Shown here: positions 50,021-55,864 of the stretch, one piece after another
How positions within the stretch are numbered: position 1 is the first letter of the stretch
Layout of the letters: each line of letters opens with the position of its first letter
Notes under the pieces: generated by a model
Seen by the model: the letters and a program-made list of their open reading frames with translations, nothing else
What the model was told of the DNA's origin: nothing
The model's database searches: none
Translations under genes and position numbers: made by a program
DNA from: Gracilibacillus lacisalsi DSM 19029
GTDB lineage: Bacteria; Bacillota; Bacilli; Bacillales; Amphibacillaceae
Length of the DNA stretch: 64,000 bases
NCBI RefSeq assembly: GCF_000377765.1
Contig: NZ_KB898663.1
Coordinates: 62,001 to 126,000 of the forward strand
Reading direction: 5' to 3'

Positions 50021-50428
50021 TTACCAATCCATATTTGCATTTCGCTCAAAAATTGCACTTTCATCTTCAATGTACTTTTCAACAGTCTTGTTTGATTGAA
50101 GAATTTCATTGTATACATGAACTGAGCTATCATCATAATACACATCTATTCCAGCATCCACAATCATTATACAGCGTTTCAAGTGAACATCTTTATCGAT
50201 ATCTTGTTTAAAGTCATCAATAATTTTACAAATATCCTCAAAGCTTTGCTTTTCTATTGGTACAAACGAATAATGAACACTTTTATTGTATTTTGACAAC
50301 AACACCGGTACAGCACCTACTCCTTCTAATTGAATATTTGCTGACTCTCCATTTTTTTCAAAGCCTCCATGACTAATGACATTCCTGTATCTATCTTTGA
50401 TATTTTTTAGCTCTTGGAGATGCTTCAT
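50021..50428 (-). CDS. Hypothetical protein with RNxxxH motif, coupled to 50425-51225
   Basis: 135 aa. Begins MKHLQELKNIKDRYRNVISH; RNVISH fits the HEPN nuclease pattern R-x4-H. The remainder (YSFVPIEKQSFEDICKIIDD; IDVYYDDSSVHVYNEILQ) is not recognised. Its ATG overlaps the TGA of the upstream gene (ATGA), in the +1 frame. The helix before the motif appears to be encoded at the end of the upstream gene, so the two may be halves of one protein. Confidence 0.55.
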   Translation of the reverse strand: MKHLQELKNIKDRYRNVISHGGFEKNGESANIQLEGVGAVPVLLSKYNKSVHYSFVPIEKQSFEDICKIIDDFKQDIDKDVHLKRCIMIVDAGIDVYYDDSSVHVYNEILQSNKTVEKYIEDESAIFERNANMDW

Positions 50429-51225
50429 AAATCATCTATATTGAATATTTGCTTATATTTTCCAATCCAATTGGCAGTCATAAAATTACTAATAGCAATC
50501 ACATTTCGATCGTATCCGTTCATTGGTAATAAGAGGACACATAAATGTTCTAAAAAGCTAAAATAAGCATCAAGCATAGCTTGTCCATAATAAAAGCCTT
50601 CTTTTGTTCTTTGGCTTCTGTTGTTTAGAAATGATGCCAAACCAATTTCGCCATTTATTACTGGAACGTTATCATTCTGAAAAACTTCATTGGCTTTTTT
50701 TCTAAAAAACAGATATCTTTCGTTAAATTTATGAAATTGATTTTCGATAGTAATGTTTCCCTTTTCCACTTGCTCTGTTGCAATTGGTTCTAATAGCTCA
50801 TCTGCTATCTTAATCATTTTAATTACTTGTATCAGCATATCCCTTTCAATCTCATGATTGGATTTATCATCATAAGAAAGAATTTTCAATCCAAATTTTT
50901 CATGAGAAAATGCAAATGAACAACCTTTGTATTTGAAAGGAAGGAACCATGCTACTTTTTCAAACGGTTCCACAAGATAATCAAATTTTAAAATCGAACC
51001 AAAAGTTATGAAAACCATATATGGAAACGGCTTTTCTATACCGTTAATATTAACTTGTCTCTTTGCATTAAACCATCCATCAAGATTAAGTAAGTCTTCG
51101 TTTTCTTCAAAATATTTTGCTAGTTGTTCGAGAGCTCCCCACTTTTTATTGCCTTTTAATTTTCCAATATCAACCAACGAAAACCATCCTTTATATCTAA
51201 CATCTCTGTCAGTAGTATTATTCAA
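50425..51225 (-). CDS. Hypothetical protein, possible N-terminal half of a HEPN-domain protein
   Basis: 266 aa from a TTG with no clear ribosome-binding site. A mixed alpha/beta N-terminal domain is followed by long helices (EGFYYGQAMLDAYFSFLEHL) and ends NWIGKYKQIFNIDDL at an ATGA overlap with the next gene. Base composition is AT-rich like the surrounding 49-52 kb. No known family; location next to ssrA, a common integration site, suggests acquired DNA (inference). Confidence 0.55.
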   Translation of the reverse strand: MNNTTDRDVRYKGWFSLVDIGKLKGNKKWGALEQLAKYFEENEDLLNLDGWFNAKRQVNINGIEKPFPYMVFITFGSILKFDYLVEPFEKVAWFLPFKYKGCSFAFSHEKFGLKILSYDDKSNHEIERDMLIQVIKMIKIADELLEPIATEQVEKGNITIENQFHKFNERYLFFRKKANEVFQNDNVPVINGEIGLASFLNNRSQRTKEGFYYGQAMLDAYFSFLEHLCVLLLPMNGYDRNVIAISNFMTANWIGKYKQIFNIDDL

Positions 51226-52165: not shown

Positions 52166-52195
52166 ATAAAAAAACCACCAATTATGTATTGGTGG
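52166..52195 (-). terminator. Terminator of ssrA
   Basis: Stem ATTGGTGG / CCACCAAT with a 5-nt loop and a run of T on the minus strand. The 5' arm includes the CCA end of the tmRNA. Confidence 0.85.
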
Positions 52196-52206
52196 AGACG
52201 GTGGGA

Positions 52207-52492
52207 CGTGCTATTCCATGCTTTCGTCATGGCACTGACTATATCTTGAACCTGCATAGTCTGATCAGGTTCCTCGGCGTATTATGCAAAATTTAGATTT
52301 ACTTTCTTAGCAATGAAAGTAGCATTTTGCATCCTAGTACTACCTAAAAAGGTAGCCTATAAGTCGATACACGGCTGTTGGATTACTCCACATACCGCTC
52401 GGTATTGCCTTATTACCATAATGGCAACGTAGGTTTCACCGATAAAGCCGAATTTTCACTTATGTGTTACCACATAAGGCGACTATTTTCTA
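52207..52492 (-). ncRNA. Group I self-splicing intron in the T-loop of tmRNA
   Basis: 286 nt. Exon 1 ends in U and the intron ends in G, as required. P1 pairs exon CGAU with intron GUCG, giving the U-G pair at the 5' splice site. Further helices seen by eye: P2 (CUUAUGUG / CACAUAAG), P3 (UCGGC 52451-52447 with GCCGA 52278-52274), P4 (UCGGU / ACCGA), P5 (UUGCC / GGCAA), P6 (GCGG / CCGU), P7 (GACU 52365-52362 with AGUC 52240-52237), P7.1 and P7.2 hairpins, and P8 (GAACCUG / CAGGUUC, 52272-52248). J8/7 and P7 read AAGAUAUAGUC, the group I hallmark. The P7.1/P7.2 extension suggests subgroup IA. No internal ORF. A tmRNA T-loop intron has been reported before, in Clostridium botulinum. Confidence 0.93.
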
Positions 52493-52714
52493 ATCGAACC
52501 CACGTCCAAGGATATCGCCACTCAGGCGTCTACACGCATAGTTGGTATATTACGCATTCGCTAGCTCTTCTGCCTACCAACAGGCGTCCGAGTAGCTAGT
52601 CTGATTAATCTCTTCTGCCGATCCACAGACGGAGGATGGCAGCGTAGCCCACTAATAAGTGAGACCCTTCAATCTACCACATGGGCGATGATAGGAAGGA
52701 TCCTTTAACAGTGC

Positions 52715-52750
52715 TTACGCAGCTGCTAAAGAGTAATTGTTTTCTTTGCC
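52715..52750 (-). other. tmRNA proteolysis-tag reading frame
   Basis: Eleven codons GKENNYSLAAA and a stop. With the Ala loaded on the tRNA-like end the tag is 12 residues, shorter than the B. subtilis tag, and keeps the LAAA end read by ClpXP. Confidence 0.85.
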
Positions 52751-52919
52751 AGTTATTATTGGCGATAACGTTTTACGAGACGTAACCTCGACGCGCAACC
52801 TGAGCTCGATCTACCCCTGTCGAATCCGTAACGTCCCCATATTAAGAATATAAGGGTCCACGGACAAGAGCAATCTTACTCGCTCTTATTCAATTATAGA
52901 TGTCCTGCCGATAATTAAT

Positions 52920-52967: not shown

Positions 52968-53432
52968 TTAGTTCAATCGATCTTTGATTGCCCGATCCAT
53001 ATCACGCTTGGCCTGTTTCTGTTTTAAATCTTCTCGTTTATCATATTTCTTTTTCCCTTTTCCTAAACCAATAAGGACCTTGGCAAAACCATTTTTAATA
53101 TAGATTTTCAATGGAATAATCGAATACCCTGCTTGCTGACTTTCTCCAATTAACTTATCGATTTGCTTCCGATGTAATAACAATTTTCGAGCACGAGTAG
53201 GCTCATGATTATAACGATTTCCCTGCTCATATGGTGAAATGTGCATATTGTTAATATATGCTTCCCCTTGTTTAATCGTTGCAAAACTGTCTTTTAGGTT
53301 AACTCGTCCTGCTCGGATTGATTTTATCTCCGTTCCTTGGAGGACAAGGCCAGCTTCATATGTTTCTTCTATAAAGTAATCATGATTTGCTTTTTTATTT
53401 TGCGCGATTACTCTTCCATCATTTTTTCCCAT
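52968..53432 (-). CDS. smpB: SsrA-binding protein SmpB
   Basis: 154 aa, full length. Family blocks [36 protein letters not shown] and [11 protein letters not shown] are present, ending with the basic tail [13 protein letters not shown] that enters the ribosomal mRNA channel. It binds the tmRNA tRNA-like domain and is needed for trans-translation. Lies between ssrA and rnr as in other Bacillaceae. Confidence 0.96.
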
Positions 53433-53584: not shown

Positions 53585-55864
53585 TCATTTATTCTTCTTC
53601 TTTTTACTACCTTTTTTCTTTTTCTTGCCATTTGCTACTGATTTTTGAGATTTTTTTGCTGTCTTCTTTAATCCACCATTACCACGCTTGGCATTGATGA
53701 CTTTTTCTTCTTTAGAAGGTTTCTTTTTTCTTGGTGACATTCCAACAATCTCAAAGTCAACAGCGCGTTCATCTAGATTGACTTGTGCAACTTTTATCGT
53801 GATGGCATCACCTACTTGAAATACATTACCGGTTCTTTCCCCGATCATTGCATAAGCCCGCTCGTCAAAATGATAATAGTCATCCGTTAAATAGCTAACA
53901 TGCACAAGACCTTCCACCGTATTTGGCAGTTCTACAAACAGACCAAAGTTTGTAACAGAGCTAATCACACCTTCGTACTCTTCCCCTATTTTATCTTGCA
54001 TGTATTCTGCTTTTTTCAAGTCATCTACTTCACGTTCAGCATCCACTGCAGCTCTTTCTTTTAAGGAAGCTTGTTTGGCAATGACTGGCATCTTGTCTTT
54101 CCAGTGCTGCCTTGTCTGTTCATCTAATTTGTTTTCGATGAGATAGGTCCTGATTAACCGATGAACAATTAAGTCCGGATATCTTCGGATCGGTGAAGTA
54201 AAATGCGTATAAAACTCAGTTGCTAACCCAAAATGTCCGATCCCCTGCGGATCATATTTCGCTTGTTTCATCGAGCGTAACATTAGTTTAGAAATAATCA
54301 TATCTTCATCTGTTCCCGCTACTTCATCTAAAACATTTTGTAATGCTTGCGGGTGGATTTCATTCGATGTTCCTTTCACGACATAACCGAATCTTGCAAT
54401 AAATTCAAAGAATGTTTGCAGTTTAGACGGGTCTGGATCTTCGTGGATACGATGAATAAAAGGAACGTCCATCCAGTGAAAATGCTCTGCTATTGTTTCA
54501 TTGGCACATAACATAAACTCTTCAATTAATCGTTCTCCTACTGAACGCTCTCGAATCACAACGTCTTGTGCTTTTCCTTCGTCATTTACTAATACTTGTG
54601 CTTCTTTAAAATCAAAGTCAATCGCACCTCGTCCAAATCGTTTTCCTCTTAATATCTCGGCTAAATCTTCCATATCTTTAAACATAGGCACTAATGCTTG
54701 ATAACGATCGATCGTTTCCTGATCATTATCAACTAATATTTGATTGACCGCTTTATACGTCATTCTTTCGGTTGTTTTAATGACTGCCTGGAAAATTTCG
54801 TGATTGACTACTTCACCTTTCGGACTAATTTCCATATCACAGCCTAATACGAGACGATCAACTTGTGGATTTAATGAACAAATACCATTAGATAAACGGT
54901 GTGGGATCATTGGAATAACTCGGTCAACCAAGTAAACACTTGTGCCGCGCTCAAAAGCTTCCTTATCAATAGGAGAATCTTCTTTTACATAATGAGTCAC
55001 ATCAGCAATGTAAACTCCTAATTTGTAATTACCATTGTCCAATCTTTTAACTGTTACCGCATCATCTAAATCCTTCGCATCTGCTCCATCAATTGTAACA
55101 ATTGTTTCATCTCTTAAGTCACGACGCCCTTGTACATCTTTTTCGCTTATTTCCTCGGAAATATTTTCCGCTTGTTCTAGTACTTCTGGTGGGAAATCGA
55201 TCGCAATACCATTTTTATAAATGATCGATAAAATATCCATTCCAGGATCATATTTATGCCCTAGGATCTCCACCACACTTCCTTCAGCACTCATTCGACC
55301 TTCTGGATATTTGGTGATTTCAACAATAACTTTATGACCGTCTACAGCGCCTTTTGCTTCTCCTTTCGGTACAAAGATATCATTTGGTATTCGTTTGTCA
55401 TCTGCGATAACAAAACCGAATGCACCGTTATCTTCATACGTACCGATAATTTCTTTCGTATAACGTTCAATAATCCTAACGACGACGCCTTCCGCTCTTT
55501 TTCCATCATCATCACGTCGATCGACACGGACAAAAACCTTATCTCCATTCATAGCAGACGCTAAATCGGCATGATTAATATACACATCCTCCATTCCCTC
55601 ATCATCCGGGATTAAGAAGGCAAATCCTTTCGCATGCATTTGAATCGTTCCACGGATTAAATTCATTTTTTCTGGTAAGCCATAGCGATTTTTTCGTGTT
55701 CGAATTAATTCACCTGATTCCTCCAGATCGTTTAAAGCCTTCATTAATTCTGTAAATTGATCCGCGCCTTCCAATTCTAGAACCTCTTCAATTTCCTGTA
55801 CCGACAAAGGCTTTGTAGCATTTTCATTAAAATAGTCTCGTATTTGTTGTTGTAATGATTCCAT
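53585..55864 (-). CDS. rnr: Ribonuclease R
   Basis: 759 aa. Order of domains: N-terminal winged helix (about 1-65), two cold-shock OB folds (about 70-220), RNB catalytic domain with the Asp cluster in [14 protein letters not shown] (near 260-275), S1 domain (about 625-705, [19 protein letters not shown]), and a Lys-rich tail. A 3'-5' exonuclease that degrades structured RNA and, with SmpB-tmRNA, nonstop mRNAs. Strong conservation; part of the secG-rnr-smpB-ssrA unit. Confidence 0.96.

Follow-up and report, generated by a model that had tools for sequence, protein, structure and literature searches.

A group I intron in the T-loop of the single detected ssrA gene of Gracilibacillus lacisalsi, and its patchy occurrence among relatives

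Can a tmRNA gene whose T-loop is broken by 286 nt of other sequence still supply a working tmRNA, and what is the insert? This question is raised by a locus of Gracilibacillus lacisalsi DSM 19029, contained in a 64,000-nt stretch of DNA (hereafter designated the window), in which rnr, smpB, and ssrA follow one another in this order on the minus strand (Table 1). Read on that strand, the T-arm runs GUGGG UUCGAU, is interrupted for 286 nt, and resumes with U CCCAC, followed by the acceptor strand CGUCUCC and ACCA; the break, the coordinates, the strand, and the insert size are exactly those that the initial annotation had given. Because the intron interrupts ssrA, ARAGORN reports no tmRNA here, either in the 64-kb window or in the raw ssrA stretch with its exons unjoined, and the program likewise returned none from the four intron-bearing loci submitted to it (L125, L126, L041, and L270). 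After the two exons had been joined in silico, one tmRNA of 363 nt was recovered with the tag GKENNYSLAAA, which ARAGORN also found, identical, in two intron-free congeneric species (L019 and L013). The Rfam tmRNA model RF00023, one of the two covariance models that the initial annotation had proposed as a check, gave 154.4 bits on 52491-52830 in a 3-kb search, the match ending at the T-arm break. The acceptor stem (5' GGGGACG, 3' CGUCUCC) contains the G3-U70 pair, the signal for alanyl-tRNA synthetase. The gene thus combines tRNA-like ends with a tag reading frame, as seen with ARAGORN on the joined flanks and with RF00023, and is a tmRNA gene. The nearest named SmpB relatives of the host are mostly of the Bacillaceae type. 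Downstream of ssrA, at 50021-51225 of the window, lie two adjacent ORFs (135 and 266 aa) with no Pfam match at E 0.001.

Table 1 Features of the ssrA locus, in window coordinates
Feature	Position	Strand	Basis or remark
ssrA (tmRNA)	52838-52190	minus	T-loop interrupted between UUCGAU and U by a 286-nt insert
ssrA 5' exon: 5' strands of acceptor stem and T-stem, tag reading frame, and loop bases UUCGAU	52493-52838	minus	RF00023, 154.4 bits; exact end from flank joining
Tag reading frame GKENNYSLAAA and stop	52715-52750	minus	ARAGORN on joined flanks, gene positions 89-124
ssrA 3' exon UCCCACCGUCUCCACCA: final T-loop base, 3' strands of T-stem and acceptor stem, and encoded CCA	52190-52206	minus	
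Terminator-like hairpin with T run	52175-52195	minus	Pattern match only: 1 vs shuffle mean of 0.6
smpB, tmRNA partner protein	52968-53432	minus	Directly upstream of ssrA; Pfam SmpB, E 5.8e-65
rnr (RNase R-type protein)	53585-55864	minus	Pfam RNB, E 4.5e-115
286-nt group I intron lacking any ORF of at least 80 aa	52207-52492	minus	Joining, RF00028, covariation, ORF list
P1: exon CGAU and intron UA (52496-52491) with UAGUCG (52485-52480)	52480-52496	minus	Splice-site U-G pair
P2 hairpin	52459-52478	minus	Two-sided changes in 6/8 pairs
P3 5' strand	52447-52452	minus	3' strand 52278-52273; 100% paired; two-sided changes in 4/6 pairs
P4 (52442-52438 with 52403-52399) enclosing P5	52399-52442	minus	P4 100% paired, one-sided changes only
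P6 and P6a	52372-52397	minus	Two-sided changes in 2/3 and 1/4 pairs
P7 5' strand GACUUAU	52359-52365	minus	3' strand 52242-52237 AUAGUC; 100% paired, invariant
P7.1 and P7.2 hairpins	52284-52355	minus	Two-sided changes in 2/5 and 7/9 pairs
P8	52248-52272	minus	97.1% paired; two-sided changes in 3/7 pairs
P9	52208-52235	minus	Two-sided changes in 1/8 pairs

The insert has the full architecture of a group I intron, P1 to P9 with P7.1 and P7.2, built on a P3-P7 core with P4-P6 and P3-P8 domains. All of the helices assigned to it from the start (P1, P3-P8, P7.1, and P7.2) are present, P2 and P9 were found in addition, and the core AAGATATAGTC is present as claimed, its position being 52247-52237. 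The insert follows a U and ends in G (52207); the U-G pair at the 5' splice site in P1 occurs in 44/44 distinct aligned rows and the terminal G in 37/37 introns of the family, so that this part of the initial description also stood. P7.1 and P7.2 are situated between P7 and P3, which we take to indicate the subgroup IA2. The insertion falls between T-loop bases 6 and 7 (UUCGAU, U), the empty sites of the genus reading TTCGA[CT]T.

The secondary structure was evaluated on an alignment of 46 T-arm-to-acceptor stretches (44 distinct), taken from 32 of the 37 intron-bearing family genomes and from 14 intron-bearing named loci, five long introns (G066, G079, G110, G152, and G153) being left out. 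Over 80 pairs (3520 cells), 99.2% of the cells held standard pairs, against 94.9% in shuffles and 34–41% when the partners were slid by 1–3 columns, the structure having been drawn on the window's own copy, which favours the true pairing over the slid controls. Two-sided changes were seen in 31/80 pairs (13.6 in shuffles), with a covariation score of 0.206 as compared with 0.118 for shuffles and 0.024–0.057 for slid partners; they occur in P2, P3, P5 (4/6 pairs of its inner part), P6, P6a, P7.1, P7.2, P8, and one pair of P9. P1, paired in all 44 distinct rows, and P7 are invariant and hence yield no covariation, so that the argument for these two helices is one of conservation. Moreover, the fold energy of -102.7 kcal/mol (z = -5.05) was equalled by 0/100 shuffles; the minimum-energy fold omits P7, a pseudoknot beyond that folding program. 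A chance origin of the structure is excluded.

The Rfam group I model RF00028 (Intron_gpI), the other model proposed, aligned over its whole length, core AAGAUAUAGUC included, and scored 37.0 bits (52216-52502; E 4e-8) when 321 bases were searched, which is below the gathering cut-off of 50; with a 3-kb query, the match was absent from the hit list. P7.1 and P7.2 are insertions relative to this model. This cut-off is that of the database and no defining feature of a ribozyme. When the organism's own genome was searched with RF00028, the ssrA intron ranked first of two matches (E 1.3e-7). The second, group I-like match (C4:16970-17272; L010 1235-1836) scored 34.2 bits, also below the cut-off, and differs from the ssrA intron in its location outside ssrA and its longer interval; it separates two parts of a ribonucleotide reductase gene, of which the one before it matches positions 2-78 of Pfam Ribonuc_red_lgC and the one after it positions 79-509.

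The arrangement is already catalogued in hundreds of bacteria and is not new in kind. The initial annotation had referred to one known case, in Clostridium botulinum, a count that is outdated: a 2025 census (PMC11915505) gives 883 unique intron-form tmRNAs from 21 phyla, Bacillota contributing the majority and most of the introns occupying the T-loop position seen here, with an average intron length of 293 bp for 843 founding sequences. The census cites Williams 2002 as an earlier report and states that a special model was built because earlier models did not span intron-form genes. The present gene, with its intron of 286 nt, shares with the forms described there a group I intron at T-loop position 7, U at position -1, a terminal G, the lack of a homing endonuclease gene, and a Bacillota-type host, and no difference of kind from them was found.

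The same insertion, which the initial annotation had suggested seeking in related genomes, is indeed present there, with a patchy distribution. Within the genus, 6/17 genomes carry the intron form and 11/17 the uninterrupted form, four of the latter having U and seven having C immediately before the site. At the family level, tmRNA was found in 158/159 genomes, all of which were read: 37 are intron-form and 121 uninterrupted, the base before the site being U in 37/37 of the former and in 56/121 of the latter, with C in 60 of the rest. The intron of one genome (G002) measures 275 nt, and the ssrA genes of three others (G112, G034, and G054) read as intact, that of G054 being cut by a contig end just before CCA. 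Three genomes (G110, G079, and G066; L180, L181, and L182) have ssrA introns of 412–426 nt with about 140 extra bases, which in G066 and G079 fall in the P5 region as judged from BLAST break points.

For the order, an even draw of 397 genomes gave 90 that match the intron DNA at E <= 1e-3, and in 89 of these 90 the best tmRNA E values (1e-71 to 1e-56) correspond, compared by eye, to the interrupted range; the resulting count of about 89/397 intron-form genomes is one by score, and six of them are already among the family genomes. The exception among the 90 (G309) and a further genome (G024) showed only short weak intron matches together with tmRNA scores of the uninterrupted kind and were counted as non-intron. 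Two others (G316 and G172) have no intron match yet an interrupted-range tmRNA score; G316 reads intact, and the tmRNA match of G172 continues to where its stretch stops, probably at a contig boundary. Seven of the 397 lacked a tmRNA match at the threshold used. Among 80 named loci, 14 were intron-form, 60 uninterrupted, and six without tmRNA by the T-arm pattern; named carriers include Siminovitchia fortis, Robertmurraya massiliosenegalensis, Heyndrickxia sporothermodurans, Neobacillus niacini, and Virgibacillus halodenitrificans. Two neighbouring ssrA copies were observed in Peribacillus huizhouensis (L069 3628 and 4738) and in one genome of the order (G402:C45:493113 and 493820).

The history of the intron was analyzed on a DNA tree of SmpB, a quick tree of one short gene, covering 138 family genomes, 35 of them with the intron; in the stretches fetched for the remaining 20, no SmpB match was obtained. 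Intron presence requires 24 changes on this tree, compared with a mean of 31.2 and a minimum of 24 in 200 shuffles, and is therefore weakly clustered, the value being reached by shuffles as well. Intron distances nevertheless track SmpB distances (Mantel r 0.62; 0/2000 permutations as high; 35 genomes), while the closest intron and the closest SmpB belong to the same genome in only 17/35 cases. Presumably, the intron is an old resident that has been largely inherited, often lost, and sometimes transferred. A recent horizontal arrival in this species would account for the tree sister (G014; SH-aLRT 94), which has no intron and C in place of U at the site, and for a number of changes also found among shuffles; it is less readily reconciled with the distance correlation, or with the intron's having no ORF of at least 80 aa, for which reason a homing endonuclease gene is not expected, and we regard it as rather unlikely. 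A phage or plasmid origin was discarded after blastn of the intron had returned no match in 50,697 phage records or 72,556 plasmid records, a result that also speaks against recent arrival.

Possible traces of intron loss were sought in the 159 family genomes by scanning for the last bases of the intron followed by the 3' exon, with up to three mismatches allowed. Matches were obtained in 36/159 genomes, the diverged introns of G043, G108, and G144 being missed, and two of the 36 (G097 and G094), both of one genus (g26) related to that of the host, have an uninterrupted ssrA. In G097, the intact gene (L179:1572-1932) is followed about 200 bases on by an intron stump with 3' exon and terminator, the whole arrangement spanning L179 1572-2200. 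In G094, the intact gene (L178:1448-1809, minus strand) and a stump consisting of about 200 nt of intron, 3' exon, and terminator (L177:1382-1620) are on different contigs; the stump adjoins a gene for an ISL3-type transposase, assigned by Pfam, an identical copy of which ends the ssrA contig, and the insertion sequence may have moved or split the stump. A third genome, G230 (L270 2560-2680), has an intron-bearing ssrA in front, and behind it the decayed 3' part of a second intron with a 3' exon.

These two or three cases suggest, as a lead, that replacement of the ssrA 3' end is one route by which introns are occasionally lost. More broadly, G094, G097, and G230 could reflect competition between the T-loop intron and mobile elements for this end, with cycling between filled and cured states and with stumps left behind by 3'-end replacement; this reading is tentative and less likely than not, and its odds are slightly lowered because an ISL3-type transposase gene adjoins the G094 stump. 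The same layout, in which the gene is made whole again and its former 3' fragment lies displaced, characterizes integrative elements at tRNA and tmRNA genes (Islander, PMC4383910). Our literature search found no report of such stumps, which is no proof of absence; the observation may be new.

How, then, would the interrupted gene of G. lacisalsi work? A genome-wide RF00023 search, the check for a second, uninterrupted copy that the initial annotation had called for, revealed a single ssrA above the cut-off of 47 in an assembly listed as 99.99% complete; 12 other matches, examined as candidates for a second gene, were tRNA-sized or smaller, scored at most 28 bits, and were rejected. Because only this ssrA exceeds the cut-off, we infer that functional tmRNA must come from splicing, in agreement with the earlier proposal that ribosome rescue here passes through it. 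Thus, in all probability, the organism has one ssrA with an ordinary T-loop group I ribozyme, and the spliced 363-nt RNA works as tmRNA. That the RNA is spliced in the cell and that its product functions would be expected from what is known of group I introns. The gene would be transcribed with the ribozyme inside the T-loop, and the intron would fold around P3-P7, so placing the U-G pair of P1, whose U is the last exon base, in the active site. External guanosine would be used to cut after UUCGAU, which would then be joined to UCCCAC, the exon sequence behind the intron's terminal G, so that a 7-nt T-loop, UUCGAUU, is regained; the predicted joined product across 52493/52206 is GGGTTCGATTCCCACC. 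Pairing of the T-stem GUGGG/CCCAC is possible already in the precursor and may keep both splice sites close to each other; on inspection by eye, little of the 3' exon would suit a P10 helix. After end processing and charging with alanine, the spliced RNA would perform tmRNA work with SmpB.

Splicing might further serve as a regulated step, with rescue tuned through GTP or Mg2+, as the initial annotation had suggested, or through a protein acting on the intron, given that the tmRNA supply must pass through it and that such sensitivity is a general property of group I ribozymes. We consider this improbable, as nothing seen in the sequence suggests regulation: no added domain was seen in the 286 nt by inspection or Rfam search, and the presence of the intron varies even among closely related genomes, as would be expected of a dispensable element, the intron being missing from the SmpB-tree sister and from 121/158 family genomes. 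That the gene is dead, its intron decayed and tmRNA supplied otherwise or not at all, with alternative rescue factors in its place, would fit the sub-threshold RF00028 score but is scarcely credible when every helix forms in this copy and is kept over 44 distinct relatives, the exons yield a complete tmRNA, and the adjoining smpB matches its family over full length.

Collectively, an ordinary spliced tmRNA gene remains the preferred reading, in which a widely conserved RNA has as its only gene found one that depends on a ribozyme. With filled and empty alleles in 6 and 11 of its 17 genomes, respectively, the genus provides a natural test bed for the cost, loss, and spread of such an intron.
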